Shown here: piece by piece, positions 4,637 to 19,871 of the stretch
Layout of the letters: each line of letters starts with the position of its first letter
Position numbering within the stretch: the stretch's first letter is position 1
Source of the DNA: a virus
Strand: one strand, 5' to 3'
Virus record (IMG/VR): IMGVR_UViG_3300006802_000455
Span: 1 to 26,766 of that record
DNA length: 26,766 nt
Program-made: the position numbers and the translations under genes
The notes under the pieces: generated by a model
Databases searched by the model: none
Told to the model about the DNA's origin: nothing
Seen by the model: only the letters and a program-made list of their open reading frames with translations

Positions 4637-4930
4637 CTAACCAACAATTCTGCGCAGTGTGCGCTTTACTGCTGGCTCATCACGATGTTTATCTATATTG
4701 AATTTAGCCATCTTGCCGCCCTCAATAATTCTGCGGATTATGCACTCGAAGTCTTCTGTTACCGCTGAAAACTGCCGCGCTATTTTTAAACCCTCTGCAT
4801 CTCGTAAATCAGTCTTTTTGTACGCCTCAAAAGCAAGCTGATGCAATTGCTTTAATGCACATTCAAAAGCCTCGTTATTAAGTAACTGCTTAGCAGCCTC
4901 ACCAACCCTTACTTTCTCTTGATCTGTCAT
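4637..4930 (-). CDS. Conserved small helical protein between portal and scaffold
   Basis: The product is 97 residues, predicted to be almost wholly helical and fairly charged. It contains AFECALKQLHQLAFEAYKKT, then LRDAEGLKIARQF and FECIIRRIIEGGKMA. Small helical proteins with an RDAEGL..AR segment are common at this place in podovirus head modules, but I know of no assigned function. It stands alone, with a 48-base gap to the portal stop upstream and a 73-base gap to the scaffold start downstream. Confidence 0.72.
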   Translation of the reverse strand: MTDQEKVRVGEAAKQLLNNEAFECALKQLHQLAFEAYKKTDLRDAEGLKIARQFSAVTEDFECIIRRIIEGGKMAKFNIDKHRDEPAVKRTLRRIVG

Positions 4931-4978: not shown

Positions 4979-7123
4979 TCATATCTGCGCGTTTTGATGC
5001 GCCGATTGATTGCGCATGCTGGCAACCGCTAATTGCGTTTGCGCTCCAGTGTCAACCTCATATTTCTTTAGCTCCAGCTTCTGGCGCTCAATCTCGATGC
5101 GTTGCGCTTCCAACTGCGCCTCATAGCTGGCCTTCATCATCTCACGCTCAGCATCGCGCCGGTCATTCTCTGACTGCAACTGCAATTGCATCTCAAGCTC
5201 AAGGCGCTTAGCATCAGCCTCCATTTTCTTAGCCTGCATGTTAAGCATGTGCTGCGCCTGGAACTTCTGCGCATCTGCTTGCATATCCATTTGCTTGAGC
5301 TGCATCGCCTGCTGCAATTTAGCTTGCTCAAGCATGGCTTGCGGTGGTGGCGGCTGCTGTGGCATCTGCTTGCCTTCCGGGTTTCCAATGAAGTCGTTCA
5401 CGTTCTTTTGGCCGCCCAGCTCAACAATTTTGGCAACCGTGTTGTAAACCTTCATTGGGTCAATCATCAACCCGCCAAACGGCGATTGAGCAAGCCCCAT
5501 TTGCATTTGCATCAAGCTGTTAAAGAAGCTGATCTGTTGCTGTTTATCGCCAGTGCCAAGCCCAACGTTAACAGTCATGTCGTACTGATCGCGCCATTCA
5601 TTAGGGTCGTAGCGCACAAACTGGCCGCGCAGCCTGAAAGCGATAGCCTCCATTTCACCCGATGTCAGCAACTTAAATATCCCCAAGAAAACAGGCTTTA
5701 ACAGTGTTTCCGCAAAGATGCGGGCAACTAGCTTAACGCGCTGTTTAGCCGCGTTTGCCGTCATCATTACCTCTGCGGCTGTTCTGTCTTGACGCAGCGC
5801 ATTGCTATCAAGCCCTTGCTGCCGCTTGGATACACCAGTCCTGCGCTCTGCCATTTGCTCGATGTGAGCAAGCATTGGCAGCATCTGTGTTGCATTGAAT
5901 GGCACAGCCTCAACGCTAAGCGCATTAGGCTGTGACTGCCTGACTATGCCACCAACGCGGAAATCAAGCAGGTCATCCATGTCGACAAGCGGGTCACCAT
6001 TGGCATTTGTCAGCACTGTCTTGCGAGGATTTACCGACAAGTTTGCAGAGTTTATGGCCGCTCTATTCAAGTCAGTAGACACGCGCTGAATGTCGGAAAC
6101 CACACGGGCAATGCCCATGCCATCCCATTGATGCGTGTTGATGATTGGGCTTGCAGTCGCTATCTGTACGTGGTCTGTCTCTTCATTTGCCAAGATGCGT
6201 TTACCAAGCCTGTGGATAACTCTTCGTTCAGCAATGCCATCGCCGTCATAGTCAACCAGCACATACTCGATGCGCAACCAACCGGTCGTAAGGCTCTCAT
6301 CCTCAGCGTCTGCTTGGTCATTTCTGCGCATGCCTTCGCGCATCTGATCGCGGTATTCATCTTCAATCGTACCGCCGTTTACTTCATCAGAAGCGCCTAA
6401 TTCTTCTGCTGTGACATCATTAAAGCCCATGCGCTTCAAATCTGATAGCGTCACTTCTGTAACACGCGCCACATACGGGCAATCTTGCAAATCCGGCGTC
6501 CCCCAGCCTCTTTTGACTAGCAATTCGGAAATTGGAAAAGCCTCTACCTTAATCGCCTTTTTGTTCTTGAGCTTTGATACACGGGCATTTACTATCGGCT
6601 GGCCTTCAATCTCAGAAACAGGCACAACGCGCTCAATCGTGTAGCCGTCTTGCTCTGCAAGCGCCAGCATCTCAAGCGTTGCGCCCTGCAAGTCTTGCAC
6701 GTCTCGCACTTGCTGGTTATCCATGTACCAGTGAATAGCGCCATTGTCCGCAATCAGCGCATCTTTGAATGCCGTATACAGAACCAGAAAGCCGTTGTTC
6801 TGCTTGTAAAACACGTAGTTGCAAGCGTCCGTTGCTTGCTGCGCCCCGGCCACATCCTCGATAGATGTTGGCTCAAAGACTACAGCCTGGTCGGATGTCG
6901 TGAAAACATCCAGTAGCTCGGGCAACGTCCACTCAACAGTGTCTTGCACTTCTGACGTGACAAGCGTAGACCAGCCCTCAAGCTCATCATCACCCTCATA
7001 AGCATCTCTGTAATACTCCCGCGCAGATTCAACACGGGCTTGGCCGATGACGTCCGCATACTCCGAAGCGTCATCCTCATTTGACTGCAAATGTCTCAGC
7101 AGTACGTCATCGTCCATCATCAT
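4979..7123 (-). CDS. Portal protein (P22/SU10-like)
   Basis: At 714 residues this has the size of P22-type portals. The N-terminal part has ESAREYYRDAYEGDDELEGW and then VTSEVQDTVEWTLPELLDVF, the hallmark start of this family. The core contains WLRIEYVLVDYDGDGIAERR and HQWDGMGIARVVSDIQR. Residues from about 590 onward form a long Gln/Met/Lys-rich helix with a PQQPPPPQAMLEQ entry, resembling the barrel helix of P22 gp1. The protein forms the ring at one capsid vertex through which DNA enters and leaves. It starts directly after the TAA of the small upstream gene. The tandem ATGATGATG leaves the exact start uncertain by up to two residues. Confidence 0.95.
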   Translation of the reverse strand: MMMDDDVLLRHLQSNEDDASEYADVIGQARVESAREYYRDAYEGDDELEGWSTLVTSEVQDTVEWTLPELLDVFTTSDQAVVFEPTSIEDVAGAQQATDACNYVFYKQNNGFLVLYTAFKDALIADNGAIHWYMDNQQVRDVQDLQGATLEMLALAEQDGYTIERVVPVSEIEGQPIVNARVSKLKNKKAIKVEAFPISELLVKRGWGTPDLQDCPYVARVTEVTLSDLKRMGFNDVTAEELGASDEVNGGTIEDEYRDQMREGMRRNDQADAEDESLTTGWLRIEYVLVDYDGDGIAERRVIHRLGKRILANEETDHVQIATASPIINTHQWDGMGIARVVSDIQRVSTDLNRAAINSANLSVNPRKTVLTNANGDPLVDMDDLLDFRVGGIVRQSQPNALSVEAVPFNATQMLPMLAHIEQMAERRTGVSKRQQGLDSNALRQDRTAAEVMMTANAAKQRVKLVARIFAETLLKPVFLGIFKLLTSGEMEAIAFRLRGQFVRYDPNEWRDQYDMTVNVGLGTGDKQQQISFFNSLMQMQMGLAQSPFGGLMIDPMKVYNTVAKIVELGGQKNVNDFIGNPEGKQMPQQPPPPQAMLEQAKLQQAMQLKQMDMQADAQKFQAQHMLNMQAKKMEADAKRLELEMQLQLQSENDRRDAEREMMKASYEAQLEAQRIEIERQKLELKKYEVDTGAQTQLAVASMRNQSAHQNAQI

Positions 7124-11116: not shown

Positions 11117-11862
11117 AAATCGCCGCCATGTTTTCTTTCGGCCTGATAATTTTTCACCCGCTCTGCTTGCGCTTGTTTTAATGCCTTTGTTTTTTCAAGC
11201 GCATCATTGCTGACCTTCACTTTTGGCGCTGAAAAATTGTTACGCAGCTCTTTCAGCTTCTCGCGCACGTAATCCGGCATTGCTGTGCTGCGCTCGAGCA
11301 TAAGCATGTCTGCTGGCTTGTACTCAATACGCATGCCGGGCGGTATGCGTCCAGCCTCCACAGCCGTGTTTACAGCCTCGCGCCGCTTGTCTTTATCAAA
11401 GCCAATAGACGCCTCCCAAGCCACAGGCTCTCTGCGCTTTCTAGCCTCGCTTACCAGCCTTGCATAAGCCTCTTTGAATGCCATCCGCGCCCCAACCTCA
11501 TCGCGACAATCAAGAATCGGTTTCGCAATTGCCCATGCCTGCAAGCACTCTCGCGTCCATATCACGGTGTCGCTTTCGTTCTTTGCAGCAATCGAGATAG
11601 CCCACGCCTCCTCAACACCAGGTCTGCCATCGCTCTTAGCCATGCGCTCTAGCTGCTCGATGATGTGCGCAGGCTTCGGCTCAAACTTGCCACCGGCTGG
11701 GTCACGCATGTGCGCTATAAGCGCAGCCCTCACATCATCAATGCCATACGCCGACAAGCAGGCAAACCACATAGCTGATTGCTTAGCGTTTGGCGCCACG
11801 CCCCACATTGCCAAGCAGTCCGTCAGCAATCCGTTGAAGTCGTCAAAATCACTCTTCTGCAT
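11113..11862 (-). CDS. Probable replication accessory protein (helicase-loader-like)
   Basis: The product is 249 residues from the ATG at 11862 (MQKSDFDDFNGLL), chosen because it overlaps the end of the upstream initiator gene by 14 bases and has a GGGGGT upstream; a longer frame with non-ATG starts is less likely. The N-terminal half (DCLAMWGVAPNAKQ, SAYGIDDVRAALIAHMRDP, GGKFEPKPAHIIEQL) is a recurrent pattern in phage proteins placed right after replication initiators, where P- or DnaC-type loaders sit. The C-terminus is long, charged and helical. No ATPase motif is visible, so it would not be a DnaC-type AAA+ loader. The function is inferred from context. Confidence 0.65.
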   Translation of the reverse strand: MQKSDFDDFNGLLTDCLAMWGVAPNAKQSAMWFACLSAYGIDDVRAALIAHMRDPAGGKFEPKPAHIIEQLERMAKSDGRPGVEEAWAISIAAKNESDTVIWTRECLQAWAIAKPILDCRDEVGARMAFKEAYARLVSEARKRREPVAWEASIGFDKDKRREAVNTAVEAGRIPPGMRIEYKPADMLMLERSTAMPDYVREKLKELRNNFSAPKVKVSNDALEKTKALKQAQAERVKNYQAERKHGGDL

Positions 11863-12691
11863 TTTGATTAACCCCCAAAAAAAGCGTTGGCATTTCAACA
11901 TCGGCAACCTCATCACCAAACAACAGCCGTTTAGCCTGCTGCGCTTGATCTGCGCTGTAGTCCTCTCGCTCTCTGTCCGTCATGTGTTTTGCTGGCTTGT
12001 GGCCTGCTCGCGCGGCGTTTTTAGCATCTGGCTCAAAAAGCCCCTGCCATCCGCCAATCGCTGCATTTTCAAGCGCAGCCGCGTAATCAACCCCTTTTGC
12101 TCTCCATGCTGCCAGCTTGTCAACAGCCATTTGCTTTTGGGCGTCAGTAGCTTTCTTGCGCTTCGGGCAACTGTGCCATGCGTCCCAATGCTGTTTGTTT
12201 ATCCAGTCAGGCAACACGAATTCGGAAACAGCGGGCTGGGAGTGCTTGCGCGACCTCTCTTCTGTATTTATATCTTCTTCTCTTCTATTCTCTTCTCTTC
12301 TCTTCTCTGGTGACGGTTTTGTAACGCTTGCTGCGTTACTTTTTGCGTTAATCCTGTATTTTTCAGTCCTGTTTTTACCCAAAGCGCGCGATTTGGCCGT
12401 TTCACCATTGTGGTAAACAAAGTTTTTCAGTGAAAGTGTTTGTCCGTTTTGGTGAATCCAGCCAACAAGTGCAACCTGTTCAGTGAATCCCGTAACGCCA
12501 GCAAGACGATCAAAAAACGCAAATGTAACGCTGTCAGCGTTACCGTCTACAGTATGCGTATCAAACCAAGCCCATATTTTGCACAACTTGCCGACAACGG
12601 CGTCTTGATCTAGCCCAAGCCTTGCTGCAATCGCCAACACTTCCGGCTTGTCAAAAGTGTCTTTTTGCAGCTTTATCCAATCTCCAGCCAT
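11849..12691 (-). CDS. O-like replication initiator
   Basis: The product is 280 residues from the ATG at 12691 (MAGDWIKLQKDTFDKPEVLA). Residues 1-100 form a winged-helix-like domain (AARLGLDQDAVVGKLCKIWA, then FFDRLAGVTGFTEQ and VGWIHQNGQTLSLKNF) seen in phage O-type and DnaT-like replication proteins. A highly charged linker (EKRREENRREED) follows. The C-terminal domain has LPDWINKQHWDAWHSCPKRK and then AAALENAAIGGWQGLF, common in proteins that contact the helicase loader. It would bind the origin and recruit the host helicase. As in lambda O, origin-like repeats lie inside the gene. It starts ten bases after a terminator-type hairpin. Confidence 0.8.
   Translation of the reverse strand: MAGDWIKLQKDTFDKPEVLAIAARLGLDQDAVVGKLCKIWAWFDTHTVDGNADSVTFAFFDRLAGVTGFTEQVALVGWIHQNGQTLSLKNFVYHNGETAKSRALGKNRTEKYRINAKSNAASVTKPSPEKRREENRREEDINTEERSRKHSQPAVSEFVLPDWINKQHWDAWHSCPKRKKATDAQKQMAVDKLAAWRAKGVDYAAALENAAIGGWQGLFEPDAKNAARAGHKPAKHMTDREREDYSADQAQQAKRLLFGDEVADVEMPTLFLGVNQNAEE
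12255..12309 (-). repeat. Purine-rich GAAGA tract in the initiator gene
   Basis: The minus strand carries a run of GAAGA and AGAGA units broken by an AT-rich spacer (ATATAAATAC). It encodes the Arg/Glu linker of the initiator. A strand-asymmetric, easily unwound tract beside iteron-like palindromes is what a lambda-type origin contains, but low-complexity coding for a charged linker would look the same. Confidence 0.55.
12319..12545. other. Candidate origin iterons: two GTAACGC-N5-GCGTTAC palindromes
   Basis: Two 19-base palindromes with the same arms and the same five-base spacing occur at 12321-12339 and 12525-12543. A single GTAACGC half site lies between them at 12492, and a near half site (GCGTTAA) follows the first. 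Five copies of one 7-mer in about 220 bases is far above chance. They lie inside the O-like initiator gene, where lambdoid phages keep the origin. The same codons give the short repeats NAASVT and NADSVT in the protein, so a protein-level explanation remains possible. Confidence 0.6.
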
Positions 12692-12700
12692 AAAAGCCCC

Positions 12701-12781
12701 ATAAAAAAAGGCTAAGGACACACTCTCATCTTTACGATGTTGGCGGACTAGCGGGCACTAGCAGAGTGTGTTCTTAGCCTT
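12701..12781 (-). terminator. Long hairpin terminator/attenuator directly upstream of the initiator gene
   Basis: The arms at 12708-12726 and 12763-12781 pair over 19 bp with one mismatch or wobble position and a 36-base loop. On the minus strand the second arm ends GTCCTTAGCC and runs straight into seven T, so it has the form of an intrinsic terminator for leftward transcripts. It ends about ten bases before the initiator ATG. This is unusually long for a simple terminator and could be a controlled attenuator of the replication operon. Confidence 0.8.
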
Positions 12782-12821
12782 GCCCTTAAAAATCCCCGCC
12801 AAGGGACGCTTTTGCCATCTC

Positions 12822-12851
12822 AAAAAAACCCCAAAGCCCGAAGGCCTTGGG
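12822..12851 (-). terminator. Intrinsic terminator downstream of the cro-like gene
   Basis: On the minus strand a 9-bp stem CCCAAGGCC/GGCTTTGGG with a UUCG tetraloop is followed by seven T after one G. It lies about 75 bases beyond the stop of the cro-like gene and is the first of two terminators in series before the replication genes, a layout like lambda tR1. A further short hairpin (GCGTGG/CCACGC, 12856-12872) lies just upstream. Confidence 0.85.
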
Positions 12852-12925
12852 TAATGCGTGGTTGCGCCACGCGGGGGAGACAACAGTTAAATCATAACAT
12901 CTATTACAACTTAGATGCAAGGCTT

Positions 12926-13117
12926 TTACTTCAAACTCGCTGGCAAATGCTTAGCCAGGTTCTTGCGCGCATAAGCAGCCGTCACGCGGTCACGCTGCGC
13001 ATCGTTTAGCTCGCCGTCTTTCCACACGACTACGCCATGCGCTGTTTTGTAACCAATCGCCTTGGCCGCCGCTGTAGCCGTTCCGCCCAATAGCTCTATC
13101 GCTTCTTTTTTCGTCAT
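12926..13117 (-). CDS. Cro-like DNA-binding regulator
   Basis: This 63-residue protein resembles the small Cro/YdaS-type helix-turn-helix regulators of lambdoid phages. MTKKEAIELLGGTATAAAKA, then IGYKTAHGVVVWKDGELND, matches the layout K..AI...GG...AAKAIG....V..W of P22 Cro-like proteins, with recognition helix about residues 25-33. The C-terminus (AYARKNLAKHLPASLK) is basic. The ribosome binding site is AAAGG. The gene is the first one transcribed leftward from the divergent control region and probably binds the TTACA-type repeats there. No matching CI-type repressor gene is present in the window. Confidence 0.8.
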   Translation of the reverse strand: MTKKEAIELLGGTATAAAKAIGYKTAHGVVVWKDGELNDAQRDRVTAAYARKNLAKHLPASLK

Positions 13118-13174
13118 ACAAACCTTTCAAAGTTCGCGGCATTTTAATAGCTATTACATGCATGCGCTATATCT

Positions 13175-13204
13175 ATTACATCTTTTTTTTCGCTGTTGTT
13201 TTAA
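13175..13204 (-). promoter_or_regulatory. Possible leftward promoter for the cro-like gene
   Basis: On the minus strand TTAAAA (13199-13204) and TGTAAT (13175-13180) are 18 bases apart, with an eight-A run between them. The -10 hexamer is good (5/6) and the -35 weaker (4/6). The -10 coincides with one of the CTATTACA repeats, so a protein bound there would block it. Other spacings in this AT-rich stretch are possible. Confidence 0.4.
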
Positions 13205-13246
13205 CGTCTGTTACAAATAAATGTGCAAATTGTTACAATTTAGTGC

Positions 13247-13274
13247 TTGCATTGTCTGTAATACCTGATACATT
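13247..13274 (+). promoter_or_regulatory. Rightward early promoter
   Basis: TTGCAT (-35, 13247-13252) and TACATT (-10, 13269-13274) are 16 bases apart, with a TG one base before the -10 (extended -10). Transcription would start near 13281. An inverted repeat GTAAT-N9-ATTAC covers the spacer and -10, a natural place for repression. This is the only strong promoter I see in front of the long rightward operon. Confidence 0.65.
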
Positions 13275-13280
13275 ACTACT

Positions 13281-13750
13281 CATGGCGGCGCTGATCTCAG
13301 CACTGCAAAGCAAGCAAGACTTGCAGATCTTTAAAAATTAAGTCCTGGCGGTTCTCTACAAAGCAGACAGCCAGCGCGTACCAGAAGCGTAATGATGGTT
13401 GAGGCGGTCAGCCAAGAGCAGAAATAGACCAAACGGCGGTGGCTGCGAAGGACGCAGCACGAATCCGCCGCGAGATGCTGGAGCCGGGAAACCGGGAGAC
13501 GTCAGCAATTTATATAGGCACTGGTTGTATGTCAGTGCCTAAAATTAAGCATCTTTTTTTTGAAGGGTGTTTAATTTTAGAGCGGCTTCTACTCAAGCGC
13601 CGCGGTTGATTCAAGGTGAGCCAGCGACCCTCACTATCAGCCACAAGAGTGCAGGCATCCGGTGATGAGCGCAGCCCGCTGGATCGTCTTGCCCACGAAA
13701 CGGGCTACTAATTAACTATTGCCCCCTAAGCGGGGGGCAGAAAGGGGTAA
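13281..13750 (+). ncRNA. Structured early leader RNA with boxB/boxA-like start (antitermination candidate)
   Basis: This 470-base stretch has no gene; the longest in-frame ATG stretches are 11-19 codons. It opens with a stem CTGCAA/TTGCAG (13303-13308, 13321-13326) followed at once by GATCTTTAAAAATTAA, a close match to the boxA of ribosomal RNA leaders, in the boxB-boxA order of rrn. Many further stems follow: CGGCGG/CCGCCG enclosing GCTGCG/CGCAGC (13434-13470), CCGG-GAAA-CCGG (13484-13495), AGGCACTG/CAGTGCCT (13516-13540), GCGGC/GCCGC (13582-13603), GTGAG/CTCAC, AGCCCG/CGGGCT (13673-13706) and TGCCCCC/GGGGGCA (13720-13739) just before the Nudix ribosome binding site. An eight-T run at 13554-13561 is not tightly coupled to a stem. 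The antitermination role is inference. Confidence 0.55.
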
Positions 13751-14113
13751 ATGTCAAAACTGCCATTCGCTTGCTTCGCAGTAGTGAAGCACGGCGATGG
13801 GGAGATCTGGGCAACCACCCGCGACGGAAAAGACGCGGGCAAAATAGGGTTGCCCGGTGGCAAGCGTGACACTGGGGAGCATCCAGAGGTCACTGCACGC
13901 CGTGAGAGTGCAGAAGAAGGCCTGCATCTTCATGGCAAGGGCAAGTTGATCCACACCGCCCTGGTGGATGGTCAGCTAGTGCACTGGTACGAGTACCAAG
14001 GCTGTACGCCCCTTCGCCGCTATAAAGAGCAAGAGCGCGGTATCCGCCCTGTCATTGTGTCGATTGAAAAAATTGGACGCAGTGGCTACGGTAACGAGTT
14101 CTTGCTTAAGTAG
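13751..14113 (+). CDS. Nudix hydrolase
   Basis: This 120-residue single-domain protein has a Nudix box at about residues 37-59: GLPGGKRDTGEHPEVTARRE, then SAEEGL. The G-x5-E-x7-RE-xx-EE core that binds magnesium is complete. The usual Gly after EE is shifted by one (EEGL), as in many phage Nudix proteins. Such enzymes hydrolyse nucleoside diphosphate derivatives, for example damaged nucleotides or NAD-type compounds; the substrate cannot be read from sequence. It is the first gene of the rightward operon, with a GGGG ribosome binding site directly after a GC-rich hairpin. Confidence 0.88.
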   Translation: MSKLPFACFAVVKHGDGEIWATTRDGKDAGKIGLPGGKRDTGEHPEVTARRESAEEGLHLHGKGKLIHTALVDGQLVHWYEYQGCTPLRRYKEQERGIRPVIVSIEKIGRSGYGNEFLLK

Positions 14114-14220
14114 CCCCCCAGCGCAGGCATGCGCTATACAAGAGATGCCGCCAACCAGCGGGGCGCGTACCGCTGACAAATTTACAAGCCCCGAAAACAG
14201 GGGTTAAATTGGGGAAAGAC

Positions 14221-14586
14221 ATGGAAATTGACAGCTTAAAAAAAATACAAGCAGCCGCTTTCGCTGCTTGGAAAGCAGCCCCGAGCGCGGCAACAGAAGC
14301 TGCGCTAGACGCAGCTGCGAAAGCGGTTGCGGCTGCAAAAAAAGCCGCTACCGCTACCCAGGCGCCCGATTTGGGCGCATCCCTGGCGGCGATGGATGCC
14401 GCTGTTGCCGCCCGTAAAAAGGCGGCTGGACAAGTAAGCCGCCTGAAAGCGGCCTGCCGCCTCCGTATGGAGGCTGAAAGCTGGCCGCGTTGCGGGCAGG
14501 GATGGCCAGCAACGGCCAGCGAGATCAGGGCGCAGGCCTTGATCGACTCCTCACCTGAGGAGGCAGAGCGCATGATGTACGACTGA
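14221..14586 (+). CDS. Ala-rich helical protein of unknown function
   Basis: The product is 121 residues from the ATG at 14221 (MEIDSLKKIQAAAFAAWKAA); a TTG four codons upstream is less likely because GGGGA then sits at good spacing from the ATG. About the first 90 residues are Ala/Lys-rich amphipathic helix (DAAAKAVAAAKKAATATQ). The C-terminal part has CGQGWPATASEIRAQALID and ends AERMMYD. There is no signal peptide. A CCCC-GAAAACA-GGGG hairpin lies just upstream. I do not recognise the family. Confidence 0.65.
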   Translation: MEIDSLKKIQAAAFAAWKAAPSAATEAALDAAAKAVAAAKKAATATQAPDLGASLAAMDAAVAARKKAAGQVSRLKAACRLRMEAESWPRCGQGWPATASEIRAQALIDSSPEEAERMMYD

Positions 14587-14670
14587 CGTGCAGGCGCACC
14601 GCGTAGCCATAATGTGGCGCGGTCAATAAATGCCACGTAAAGGTAATTTAAAAATTACAGGGGGTATTAA

Positions 14671-14997
14671 ATGGGAAATTTTGCAACATATGTAGACCCC
14701 AATGCGGGTCACTTGGCAGCCGGTTGCTACACAGGCGCCTCGGAAGAGGAGCGCGCTGCGTTGGCGGCGCGTGCTGCTACGTGGCAGGAAAACCACGCGG
14801 TCGAAATGGCTGCAAAGGCCGAAAAGGCCAGATTTGTTTATGAAGAGGCTATTGCCTCTTCTTTGGCTCTCGCGGAGAGAGCCAGAAAAGCGGGCTACGA
14901 GGTAAGCGCAGCCCGTGCGCTGAAAAGAGCGGAAACACTAAGGGCTGCGCTGGCCGCTGGTAAACAGTGGCTAGAAAAAGGAAAGCCAGTTCACTAA
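14671..14997 (+). CDS. Small helical protein of unknown function
   Basis: This 108-residue protein starts MGNFATYVDPNAGHLAAGCY and continues as a charged, Ala/Glu/Lys-rich helix to the end (EEERAALAARAATWQ, LALAERARKAGYEVSAARAL). It resembles its upstream neighbour in composition but not in motifs. The GGGGG ribosome binding site is well placed. Its stop codon lies inside the loop of a 7-bp hairpin (AAGCCAG/CTGGCTT, 14983-15007). The function is unknown. Confidence 0.65.
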   Translation: MGNFATYVDPNAGHLAAGCYTGASEEERAALAARAATWQENHAVEMAAKAEKARFVYEEAIASSLALAERARKAGYEVSAARALKRAETLRAALAAGKQWLEKGKPVH

Positions 14998-15007
14998 GCG
15001 CTGGCTT
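14983..15007 (+). other. Hairpin spanning a stop codon
   Basis: AAGCCAG and CTGGCTT form a perfect 7-bp stem with an 11-base loop that contains the TAA of the upstream gene. There is no T-run, so it is not a terminator. It might stabilise the mRNA end or modulate translation of the next gene, which starts 22 bases later. Confidence 0.5.
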
Positions 15008-15028
15008 GGCATAAATTAAGGAGTAACC

Positions 15029-15343
15029 ATGCAATTCATCAACTGCACGCCCCACCCAATCACAATAGATGGGGTGGGCACCCTGCCACCTAGCGGGATT
15101 ATCCCCCGCTGCGCCACTGTGCGCAGTGAACCCGCCTTTGTGGGTGGTGTCCGCGTTGTCGCCCAATCAATGGGCGAAGTGACCGGCCTGCCAGCGCAAA
15201 AAGATGGTGTGGCACTCATTGTCAGTGCCCTAGTTTTGGGCGCATTAAAGGGCACCCGTCAAGATGTTTTTGCTCCTGATACTGGAGCAGATGCGGTAAG
15301 GGAAAACGGGCAGATTGTGTCCGTCAGGGGGCTGGTGCAGTAA
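15029..15343 (+). CDS. Conserved phage protein of the NCTPHPI type
   Basis: This 104-residue protein begins MQFINCTPHPITIDGVGTLP and has RVVAQSMGEVTGLPAQKDG and ALIVSALVLGALKGTRQDVF before APDTGADAVRENGQIVSVRG. The pattern N.TPH.ITI ... G.V.GLP...DG...IVS ... R.D...PDTG..AVR recurs in small proteins of many phages and bacteria. It is beta-rich and probably cytoplasmic. I know of no established function. The ribosome binding site is AAGGAG. A complex set of hairpins follows directly after its stop. Confidence 0.72.
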   Translation: MQFINCTPHPITIDGVGTLPPSGIIPRCATVRSEPAFVGGVRVVAQSMGEVTGLPAQKDGVALIVSALVLGALKGTRQDVFAPDTGADAVRENGQIVSVRGLVQ

Positions 15344-15352
15344 AATAATAAA

Positions 15353-15433
15353 AAGCCCTTGGAAACAAGGGCATCAATCAAAGCTCTTGCTGCTGGGTGT
15401 TCCCGGTGGAGCGCACAAGGGCTTTGATTGATG
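15353..15433 (+). promoter_or_regulatory. Mutually exclusive hairpins, possible riboregulator
   Basis: Hairpin one is GCCCTTG-GAAA-CAAGGGC (15355-15372), a perfect stem with a GNRA loop. Hairpin two pairs 15372-15389 with 15416-15433 over 18 bp with one G-U pair, core CATCAATCAAAGC/GCTTTGATTGATG. The right side of hairpin two repeats CAAGGGC, so AAGCCCTTG at 15353-15361 could pair perfectly with 15416-15424 instead. Two competing folds are the form of an attenuator or riboswitch. It matches no riboswitch class I can name. Confidence 0.55.
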
Positions 15434-15447
15434 GTACAGAACACGTA

Positions 15448-15477
15448 ATCGGTAAATAGAAAGTGTGCGTACCGATA
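15448..15477 (+). other. Inverted repeat in the 15344-15564 intergenic region
   Basis: ATCGGTA and TACCGAT form a perfect 7-bp stem. An alternative pairing between AAAGTG and CACTTT just downstream overlaps it. This region between two genes contains no plausible coding sequence and appears to be wholly occupied by RNA structure, ending with the terminator at 15534. Confidence 0.4.
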
Positions 15478-15533
15478 ATCAAGCGCACTTTTGTGGCAAG
15501 CGTGATGGCCGCCATCAACTAACATCAACACAG

Positions 15534-15553
15534 CCCGCTTTTGCGGGTTTTTT
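15534..15553 (+). terminator. Intrinsic terminator directly before the PAPS-reductase-like gene
   Basis: CCCGC-TTTT-GCGGG followed by six T is a textbook terminator. It ends three bases before the GGAG ribosome binding site of the next gene, so it lies between two genes of the same operon. A nearly identical copy occurs at 16520 and a degenerate one at 17066. Confidence 0.85.
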
Positions 15554-15564
15554 AATGGAGCGAT

Positions 15565-16512
15565 ATGGAGCACAACATCATCAGCGTGAGCGGCGGGAAA
15601 GACAGCACAGCTCTGCTGCTACTTGCCATCGAGCGCGAGGCAGAAAATTTGCAGGCTGTGTTTGCCGACACCGGAAACGAGCATGAGCTGACATACGAAT
15701 ATGTCCGGTATTTGACCGAGGCAACTGGTGTTCCGATCCGCTGGGTGCGCGCGGACTTTGCCAAGCGCATTGCTGGGAAAAAGGAATACGTGCTGACCAA
15801 GTGGGCTGACAAAGGCGTTCCGCAAGCCGACATTGACCGCGCCGCAGCAGCGCTGGTGCCAACGGGCAATCCGTTTCTTGACCTGTGCATATGGAAAGGC
15901 CGCTTTCCCAGCACAATGGCCGCGTTCTGCAGTGCAGAGCTTAAACGCGAACCAATAGTTCAACAGGTGCAGGCTCCACTACTGGCAGCTGGCGACGACG
16001 TTCGCAGCTGGCAGGGCGTACGCAGGGGTGAATCACTAAAACGCCGTTTCCTGCTGGAGTTGGAGCGGGTGCCAGTCAAACACCTTGGCGAGCTGTGGAA
16101 CTACAGACCCATCCTCGATTGGACCGCTGAGGATGCTTTTGCCATGCACCGCAAACATGGCATCAAGCACAACCCGCTCTATGAGCAAGGCATGGGTCGC
16201 GTTGGCTGCATGCCCTGCATCAACTGCCGCAAGGACGAGCTTCTTGAAATTAGCAAGCGCTTTCCAGAGGCTATAAACCGTATCCGACAATGGGAAGCCG
16301 CCGTATCTAGCGCCAGCAAGCGCCAGGCTGCGACATTTTTTCCCGCAGCGAACCACGGCGGTGGCATCACACCAGCCGAAGCGGTCAAAATGGCAAACAT
16401 TGACGCAGTTGTGGAGTGGTCGCAAACCAGCAGAGGCGGAAAGCAGTTCGATCTTGTCCGGGCAATGGGCGATGGGCCTCTGTGCTCATCAATCTATGGC
16501 CTATGTGAATAA
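15565..16512 (+). CDS. PAPS reductase/DndC-type PP-loop protein
   Basis: This 315-residue protein starts HNIISVSGGKDSTALLLLAI, with the PP-loop SGGKDST at residues 9-15 that binds ATP or an adenylated sulfur donor. VFADTGNEH follows as the usual second motif, and RSWQGVRRGES (about 147-157) and NYRPILDWTAEDAF match the phosphoadenosine phosphosulfate reductase family. Cysteines cluster at 122 (FCSAELK), 215, 218 and 221 (GCMPCINC), 307 and 314, an arrangement suited to an iron-sulfur cluster as in DndC-type enzymes. Phage members are found widely; roles in DNA modification, sulfur metabolism or RNA thiolation are possible. No other dnd or modification gene is nearby, so its substrate is open. 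Confidence 0.85.
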   Translation: MEHNIISVSGGKDSTALLLLAIEREAENLQAVFADTGNEHELTYEYVRYLTEATGVPIRWVRADFAKRIAGKKEYVLTKWADKGVPQADIDRAAAALVPTGNPFLDLCIWKGRFPSTMAAFCSAELKREPIVQQVQAPLLAAGDDVRSWQGVRRGESLKRRFLLELERVPVKHLGELWNYRPILDWTAEDAFAMHRKHGIKHNPLYEQGMGRVGCMPCINCRKDELLEISKRFPEAINRIRQWEAAVSSASKRQAATFFPAANHGGGITPAEAVKMANIDAVVEWSQTSRGGKQFDLVRAMGDGPLCSSIYGLCE

Positions 16513-16519
16513 CACACAT

Positions 16520-16539
16520 CCCGCTTTTGCGGGTTTTTT
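16520..16539 (+). terminator. Intrinsic terminator, second copy of the CCCGC cassette
   Basis: The CCCGC-TTTT-GCGGG stem plus six T is identical to the copy at 15534, and the following ATTGGAAG supplies the ribosome binding site of the next gene at 16553. It begins seven bases after the stop of the preceding gene. Confidence 0.85.
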
Positions 16540-16552
16540 ATTGGAAGCGTGC

Positions 16553-17029
16553 ATGTCAAAACTACTTGAGAGGCTCCAATCTTCGTTAGAAAAGAAGCAG
16601 TGCATATTTGATTCCAGACTGTCAGAGTACTACGCAAGCGTCAAGCAGACCAACGGGCAACCGCTGAACGACAAGCGAAACGGCATGTCAACACTCGCAA
16701 AATGGGAGCGCCAAAACGATGGTTTACGGAAGATTCATGCAGAAATTGAAGTTACTAAGAAAGCAATTGAGCGCGAAAAATCAAAGATCGCGAAAGTCGA
16801 TGCTTTGGAGTTACCGTCAGCAATACGCGTCATGATTGATGATGGCGTTTTAATACAGTGGCGAAAATATCCAAACCGATTCTTTGTTCAGGGTGTTGAT
16901 CGAGGGAGGATTGTTTGGGACGATAAAAATAAGGTAATCACCCATCAGTATTTGGGCGAAATACCGGCTGAACAGTATCCAAAATTCCGCGATACGTTCA
17001 ACAAATTGCGCCGTGAAATAGCCGGGTAA
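16553..17029 (+). CDS. Coiled-coil protein of unknown function
   Basis: The product is 158 residues from the ATG at 16553 (MSKLLERLQSSLEKKQCIFD), chosen because a longer upstream frame would overlap the previous gene and a terminator. Residues 1-85 are charged helices with coiled-coil character (KIHAEIEVTKKAIEREKSKI). The second half is a compact mixed domain (VMIDDGVLIQWRKYPNRFFV, then GVDRGRIVWDDKN and YLGEIPAEQYPKFRD). It carries no catalytic motif I recognise. Confidence 0.65.
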   Translation: MSKLLERLQSSLEKKQCIFDSRLSEYYASVKQTNGQPLNDKRNGMSTLAKWERQNDGLRKIHAEIEVTKKAIEREKSKIAKVDALELPSAIRVMIDDGVLIQWRKYPNRFFVQGVDRGRIVWDDKNKVITHQYLGEIPAEQYPKFRDTFNKLRREIAG

Positions 17030-19344: not shown

Positions 19345-19366
19345 AGCCGCCACTGTGCGGCTTTTT
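19345..19366 (+). terminator. Intrinsic terminator between ssb and the Gp157 gene
   Basis: AGCCGC-CACTGT-GCGGCT runs into five T (19362-19366). It starts 22 bases after the ssb stop and ends a few bases before the GGGG ribosome binding site of the next gene, repeating the terminator-then-ribosome-binding-site layout seen upstream. Confidence 0.85.
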
Positions 19367-19379
19367 CATAGGGGCAAAC

Positions 19380-19871
19380 ATGAAAAATACATTATTTGAA
19401 CTAGCGCAGTTAATCCGCAATGCGCTGGATGTTGTCGATCAAGAAACTGGTGAGATTCTTGATTTTGACCAAAGCAAACAGCTTTTTGAGCAAAAGGGCG
19501 TTGCCTGCATTGCTTATTTGAAGGATGAGGCTGCGCGAATTGATGCAGGCAAAAAGATGCTCGCAGAAATGACAGAGGCGGTTAAGAAGAAAGAAAAGCG
19601 GCTAGAGGCTTTCAAAGAATATATTGCAAGCTGCATGAAATCGGCTGGCATTACTGATATTGCGCACGATTCTGGCGTTTTTGGCGCGAAACTGTATTTA
19701 GACAGGGATGAATCACTCGAGATTGTTGACGCCTTAGCAATACCGGCCGATTTATACAACGACCCTGAGCCGCCAGAGCCAAGCAAAACAAAGATCAAGG
19801 CGGCGCTTAAAGCTGGCCAGGTTATTGATGGTGTTCGTATTGTCAAAAAAGACAGGCTGACAATTAAATAA
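19380..19871 (+). CDS. Siphovirus Gp157 family protein
   Basis: This 163-residue protein fits the Gp157 family in length and layout: an N-terminal helix (LFELAQLIRNALDVVDQETG, then EILDF), a long charged coiled coil (ARIDAGKKMLAEMTEAVKKK, then EKRLEAFKEYIASCMKSAG), a GAKLYLDRDESLEIVD strand region, IPADLYN, and the C-terminal KTKIKAALKAGQVIDGVRIV. Members are often found beside phage recombination genes, and one was linked to phage resistance in Streptococcus thermophilus. The biochemical role is unknown. Its position next to Sak4 and SSB is the usual one. Confidence 0.88.
   Translation: MKNTLFELAQLIRNALDVVDQETGEILDFDQSKQLFEQKGVACIAYLKDEAARIDAGKKMLAEMTEAVKKKEKRLEAFKEYIASCMKSAGITDIAHDSGVFGAKLYLDRDESLEIVDALAIPADLYNDPEPPEPSKTKIKAALKAGQVIDGVRIVKKDRLTIK

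Follow-up and report, generated by a model that had tools for sequence, protein, structure and literature searches.

How can transcription reach the distal genes of a phage early operon that carries intrinsic terminators between its genes and encodes no recognizable N protein? Early antitermination in phages is usually ascribed to N-type proteins, and the put RNA of HK022 is the protein-free exception. The question is raised by a whole viral contig of 26,766 bases (IMG/VR record IMGVR_UViG_3300006802_000455; hereafter the window), in which a structured leader lies between divergent transcripts. The sequence and predicted fold of the leader's start suggest that it is probably an antitermination site of the rRNA-operon type, one that would act through host Nus factors and need no phage N protein.

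Gene content and terminators of the early operon

The rightward early operon begins at 13751 and encodes a NUDIX protein, a PAPS-reductase-like protein, a Sak4-type ATPase and a Gp157-like protein, and the leftward genes include Cro-like, replication-type, terminase and portal genes (names of genes in the window that lack a Pfam match are inferred). The first early-operon gene (13751–14113, + strand) has a NUDIX domain (PF00293, E 1.1e-7). A second contig, L359 (IMGVR_UViG_3300019732_000002), encodes a terminase 100% identical to that of the window and is probably the same phage; the part of it compared ends short of the leader.

Three strong intrinsic terminators lie between genes on the + strand: AGCCCGCTTTTGCGGGTTTTTT at 15532–15549, directly before the ATG at 15565; CCCGCTTTTGCGGGTTTTTT at 16520–16533, directly before the ATG at 16553; and AGCCGCCACTGTGCGGCTTTTT at 19345–19362, directly before the ATG at 19380. 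A fourth, weaker terminator-like hairpin at 14859 has a broken T run and is located inside a gene. The original prediction had counted five such hairpins between genes; this number was too high, but the operon's coding strand does have a real excess of terminators (expectation in shuffled sequence, 0.1). Between each of the three strong stems and the ATG that follows lie 15 to 19 nt, a gap taken up by the T run and the ribosome site. Therefore, the genes behind the terminators have no promoter of their own after the terminator: there is no room for the separate promoters right behind 15532, 16520 and 19345 that had been named as a competing explanation. Thus, either read-through or promoters inside the upstream genes are necessary. 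The earlier statement that no N-like basic protein is seen also holds, as a charge scan of the early genes and small ORFs of the window found no N-like or arginine-rich N-terminal protein.

Several other features of the two transcripts were recorded. In the stretch 15532–16534, the PAPS-reductase-like gene stands between AGCCCGCTTTTGCGGGTTTTTT and CCCGCTTTTGCGGGTTTTTT, two terminators of almost the same sequence, which gives it the look of an inserted cassette. At 15344–15531 the operon has another non-coding gap with structure, in which a 12-bp inverted repeat, ATCAATCAAAGC/GCTTTGATTGAT, occurs together with an oppositely facing terminator at 15372–15355. Divergent from the leader is the small Cro-like gene (12926–13117, − strand; an inferred name with no Pfam match), which has relatives of 47% identity in L017 and L018. 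The divergent minus transcript carries no boxA and meets a terminator at 12851–12830. Around this terminator, 12822–12884 (−) holds a promoter-like TTGCAT-18-TATGAT (TSS ~12884) with an overlapping dyad, and it is possible that a ~60-nt small RNA is made here after the Cro-like gene; the Rfam family Betaproteobacteria_toxic_sRNA gives a weak full-length match with the same start (20.7 bits, cut-off 50). Further along, at 12711–12778 (−), a stem of ~17 bp encloses two small hairpins and is followed by seven T directly before the start of the replication-type gene, which looks like a terminator or attenuator in this other early transcript.

The leader and its promoters

The leader spans ~470 nt (13281–13750, + strand). 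As originally described, it holds no convincing gene; it is overlapped by short ORFs only, the small ORFs within it are chance-like in appearance, and the first likely gene downstream is that of the NUDIX protein. The strong promoter that had been placed before it was not recovered. Instead, there are two moderate, sigma-70-like candidates, identified by consensus match only, which rank ~12th and ~48th in the window by a simple score. Candidate 1 (13210–13239, +) reads GTTACA-18-TACAAT with a TG before the −10 element and would start transcription at ~13246. Candidate 2 (13247–13274, +) reads TTGCAT-16-TACATT, would start transcription at ~13281 and overlaps a weak dyad, GTAAT-9-ATTAC (13258–13276), a possible repressor site. 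If candidate 2 is used, the first hairpin described below forms the very 5' end of the RNA, comparable to several Pseudomonas phage leaders.

A 505-nt leader RNA has a predicted folding energy of −181.8 kcal/mol, compared with −160.9 ± 7.2 for shuffled sequences (z −2.9; 1 of 100 shuffles as good), and about ten local stems, in line with the at least eight noted before. No Rfam family reached its gathering score in the leader, and a tRNA search found none; the MicA and U7 matches score far below threshold and are taken as chance. No sequence relatives of the leader were found among annotated phages, through the exact boxB–boxA string in viral contigs, or through relatives of the NUDIX gene or the terminase.

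Tandem hairpins and an rRNA-type boxA at the 5' end

The stems of the leader had been seen correctly; what had been overlooked is an rRNA-type boxA that follows tandem hairpins at its 5' end. Hairpin 1 of this antitermination-like module (13285–13306, +; 22 nt) is given by the predicted fold. Hairpin 2 (13310–13324, +; 15 nt) is boxB-like, with a 5-bp stem and a 5-nt loop (GCAAG-CAAGA-CTTGC), and is followed by boxA, GATCTTTAAAAATTAA (13326–13341, +), which matches the boxA of rRNA operons. The fold predicted for 13283–13327 has an energy of −17.6 kcal/mol and makes up 92% of the ensemble; taken by itself, the hairpin pair beats shuffles only by a modest margin (p 0.043). Hairpin 2 ends 1 nt 5' of GATCTTTAA and 3 nt 5' of TCTTTAA, a hairpin-to-boxA spacing within the range of rRNA leaders. 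On its 3' side, boxA is followed by a larger imperfect stem, and the rest of the leader (13342–13750, +), ~410 nt, is non-coding and strongly structured, with stems that include 13515–13541 and 13539–13580. The 14-nt TCTTTAAAAATTAA within boxA is identical to the boxA regions of rRNA operons in three Burkholderiaceae genomes (G070, G074 and G128). No string of the boxC type (GU-rich, GTGTGGG) occurs in the 50 nt 3' of boxA, and because of this the element is named rRNA-like rather than a full rRNA site.

Host rRNA leaders were searched in 121 genomes from the family of Acidovorax facilis, the host of the prophage closest by Sak4. The query, boxA followed by a conserved rRNA leader string, was matched in 33 of them. 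Most Burkholderiaceae rRNA leaders have a hairpin that ends 1–5 nt 5' of boxA, the same order as in the window, and in Alcaligenes, Ralstonia and Pseudomonas genomes boxA is at the expected place before the 16S gene.

The boxA of the window was first recognized by looking, and matrix scoring came afterwards. The weight matrix was trained solely on 25 boxA sites of host rRNA leaders, nearly all from Burkholderiaceae, with the window excluded. It gives GATCTTTAAAAATTAA 23.0 bits, a score that presumes a host in the Burkholderiaceae, and the second best site in the window 11.7 bits. Other phage DNA, 5.5 Mb scanned on both strands, contains no site that equals 23.0 bits; four come within 4 bits, three of which are the early-leader boxA of L081, L090 and L098. 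The motif TCTTTAA[AC]AA occurs once on the two strands of the window against 0.22 expected, and the expectation in the window falls to 0.0045 when a 5-bp hairpin is required directly upstream; shuffling the leader yields a boxA, hairpins disregarded, with a probability of 0.0012. The exact GATCTTTAAAAATTAA is found in 70 viral contigs. Since most of these have no stable upstream hairpins and many of the matches lie inside long open frames, the string cannot by itself serve as a diagnostic in AT-rich viruses. A scan with GYTCTTTAAAAATTAA gave an upstream hairpin at at least five loci. Weight matrix and folding tests were used rather than a covariance model, as the hairpin lengths are too different to align.

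Recurrence in early leaders of other phages

The same layout, with different hairpin sequences, stands at the start of early leaders in at least three other phage groups: an Alcaligenes type, many temperate phages of Pseudomonas and a phage of Leptolyngbya. The Alcaligenes-type module is present in L073, L079, L081, L093 (a prophage of Alcaligenes faecalis) and L219–L227. It extends over ~110 nt from near the predicted TSS to boxA (AACGCTTCAC...GCAGCAAAGGCTGC-G-CCCGCTAAGGCGG-A-GGCTCTTTAAAAA), and conservation ends at boxA: the upstream promoters differ, and the downstream sequence is unrelated between groups. Its hairpin 2 varies from CCGC/GCGG to CTGC/GCAG. In two of the downstream variants, CGATAA lies 3' of boxA with a spacing that, judged by eye, nearly equals that of rRNA leaders. 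An invariant AGAGC before the hairpins (6928–6975 in L073, and in its relatives) can pair with the GCUCU of boxA; the boxA of this type may be hidden until a factor binds.

In Pseudomonas, hairpins and boxA are carried by two prophages (L105 and L106) and by BR153a, UFJF_PfDIW6, CF23a, SC_8, YMC11/07/P54, phiPSA1, psageB2, psageK9 and PS-1; in Riah, LESphi3 and PP9W the hairpins are accompanied by the boxA variant GCTCTTTCACA. A boxA such as GCTCTTTAACA follows the hairpins just past the CI/Cro region in the Pseudomonas and Leptolyngbya phages. In the Pseudomonas group, boxA is in the immunity region; in most annotated cases it comes right after the repressor gene, within a long stretch that has no annotated gene. 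The stems of hairpin 1 in this group (including GCAGTC/GACTGC, GCCAGC/GCTGGC, CGAGTC/GACTCG, GCAGTG/CACTGC and CGGCA/TGCCG) are replaced yet complementary. The Leptolyngbya phage Lbo-JY16 has GCCAG/CTGGC and GGC-GAAA-GCC, followed by GCTCTTTACACA; the gap that contains them measures 617 nt, and its divergent layout is that of the window. Combined over 13 such leaders, the 48 nt before boxA fold better than shuffles (Fisher p 2e-5, a generous value given that relatives are not independent). Sites with hairpin and boxA number 8 in 1.63 Mb of Sak4-phage loci, compared with 1.7 after shuffling.

Some of these leaders show features of their own. The Pseudomonas leaders share an RNA domain of ~140 nt 3' of boxA (6551–6688 in L105; also L348, L349 and L352–L355). 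An 8-bp helix, CGCATTGC/GCAATGCG, closes the domain, which shows some compensatory changes, matches no Rfam family and is possibly a new phage RNA family. Downstream of the boxA leader of L090, a Pasteurellaceae prophage, six strong intrinsic terminators lie on the coding strand of the operon (11334–16793) and none on the other strand, as in the window. L098, a prophage of Xenorhabdus indica, has a boxA on both of its divergent early transcripts, at 4838 and 6086. It was dropped as support for an rRNA-type leader because its boxA is followed by a boxB-like hairpin and because it has a basic ORF near 6539, which we take to be P22-N-like; L098 is probably an ordinary nut/N system.

Proposed mechanism and alternative explanations

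In the proposed mechanism, the first ~60 nt of the nascent RNA would fold into the two hairpins and leave boxA exposed to the host NusB/NusE(S10) dimer. Binding of the dimer would be followed by NusA, NusG and SuhB, which would make RNA polymerase resistant to termination as on the rRNA operons of the host. Such a complex could prevent Rho from acting on the long untranslated leader and increase read-through at 15532, 16520 and 19345, such that the distal early genes, including that of the Sak4-type ATPase, are expressed. In vitro, the rRNA antitermination complex with SuhB delays Rho and lowers intrinsic termination, and SuhB binds the boxA–boxC region of E. coli rrnG RNA (PMC6614801). For the phage, Nus-factor binding and antitermination are proposed, and whatever function the other 410 nt may have is likewise putative. 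Weighing against this mechanism are the lack of a recognizable boxC, the modest margin of the hairpin pair over shuffles, the uniqueness of the leader in sequence, and a divergent minus transcript that also meets a terminator and has no boxA. Protection from Rho may be the main job of the module in some phages, since L105 and L106 carry it with no strong terminators downstream.

Those two prophages also favor a more limited role, in which boxA does no more than keep Rho off the untranslated leader or, as at suhB, adjust translation of the first gene, and the distal genes are expressed through leaky terminators or internal promoters. It is consistent with the chiefly Rho-directed action of rRNA complexes and with the repression of suhB in E. 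coli by a boxA that works without phage factors (PMC5725501). However, three strong stems so close to start codons leave no room for promoters, and the six coding-strand terminators of L090 against none opposite, behind a similar boxA leader, are not what such a role would lead one to expect; we consider it unlikely, if the most credible of the alternatives. A chance origin of the boxA-like string in AT-rich sequence, with some other function for the leader such as a riboregulator of the first gene, would fit a leader that is unique in sequence. It is improbable in view of the rarity of boxA in shuffles and by matrix score, and of its recurrence at the same place in unrelated phages.

Two further explanations assign the key contact to the hairpins. 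The loop of lambda boxB is GAAGA, to which the CAAGA loop of hairpin 2 is close, and the 5-bp stem also has lambda boxB geometry; an unrecognized phage RNA-binding protein might read hairpin 2 in a nut-like site. Small basic proteins are encoded in the operon at 16553, 19919 and 20274, and L098, with its boxA–boxB order and P22-N-like ORF, indicates that N systems occur among phages with related Sak4 genes. Conversely, the order in the window is hairpin–boxA and not boxA–boxB, the charge scan found no arginine-rich N-terminal protein (a divergent N might escape it), and the other groups vary the stem, loop size and loop sequence of hairpin 2 around a constant boxA, as host rRNA leaders do. Such a protein is accordingly a rather doubtful candidate. 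A put-like RNA, whose hairpins would bind RNA polymerase directly, is suggested by the tandem arrangement of two hairpins close to where the early transcript begins, which is also seen in putL (PMC9378689), but it is very improbable: in the sequence and Rfam comparisons, HK022 is absent from the hits of the leader and no Rfam family matches, the hairpins are short (22 and 15 nt) relative to the long stems of the ~70-nt put RNA, and put has no counterpart of the rRNA boxA at the end of the element. Thus, where the original prediction offered either a put-like RNA or a host Nus-factor complex, it is the latter that the match of hairpin and boxA to host rRNA sites, in sequence and order, favors.

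Significance and comparison with known systems

Among the titles and abstracts that full-text searches of non-subscription literature brought up, none describes rRNA-type boxA leaders in phages without N, and an rRNA-like variant of Nus-dependent antitermination appears to be undescribed in phages. The chances are about even that the leader belongs to a widespread, undescribed class of phage early leaders in which tandem hairpins and boxA imitate the rRNA antitermination site of the host, so that its ribosomal antitermination machinery is taken over without a phage protein. This class would recur with unrelated hairpins in phages whose hosts are Burkholderiales-like, Alcaligenes, Pseudomonas or a cyanobacterium, and the border of boxA would be the point at which the module recombines. 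An early leader that supplies an rRNA antitermination site ready-made would add a third and very economical route to early antitermination, could explain the expression of long early operons in temperate phages without a recognizable N, and would tie phage gene expression to the machinery of host ribosome synthesis (SuhB, NusB).

Among known systems, the nut sites of lambda, served by N (and those of P22 and mEp021), also place boxA in an early phage leader, after the promoter and before terminators. The order in lambda nut is opposite to hairpin–boxA (PMC6614801): in the window boxA comes after the small hairpin, and the search for an N protein was negative. In HK022, putL is a hairpin pair just after PL (PMC9378689). 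It resembles the leader of the window in that two hairpins lie close to where an early transcript begins and in that no phage protein is proposed. Sequence comparison found no similarity between the two, and putL differs in lacking boxA and in acting directly on polymerase, whereas host Nus factors are proposed to mediate the action here. The boxB–boxA–boxC site of rrn operons works with Nus factors and SuhB. There, too, a long untranslated RNA carries, close to its 5' end, a hairpin and then boxA, and the 14-nt boxA region is shared with some Burkholderiaceae rRNA leaders; unlike the rrn site, the element of the window has no recognizable boxC and stands in a phage early operon with protein genes and intrinsic terminators downstream. 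Finally, boxA sites outside rRNA operons, in the suhB leader and at Citrobacter koseri CKO_00699 (PMC5725501), are likewise cases of a host Nus complex at an mRNA leader without N; the outcome at suhB is repression, whereas antitermination is proposed for the window.
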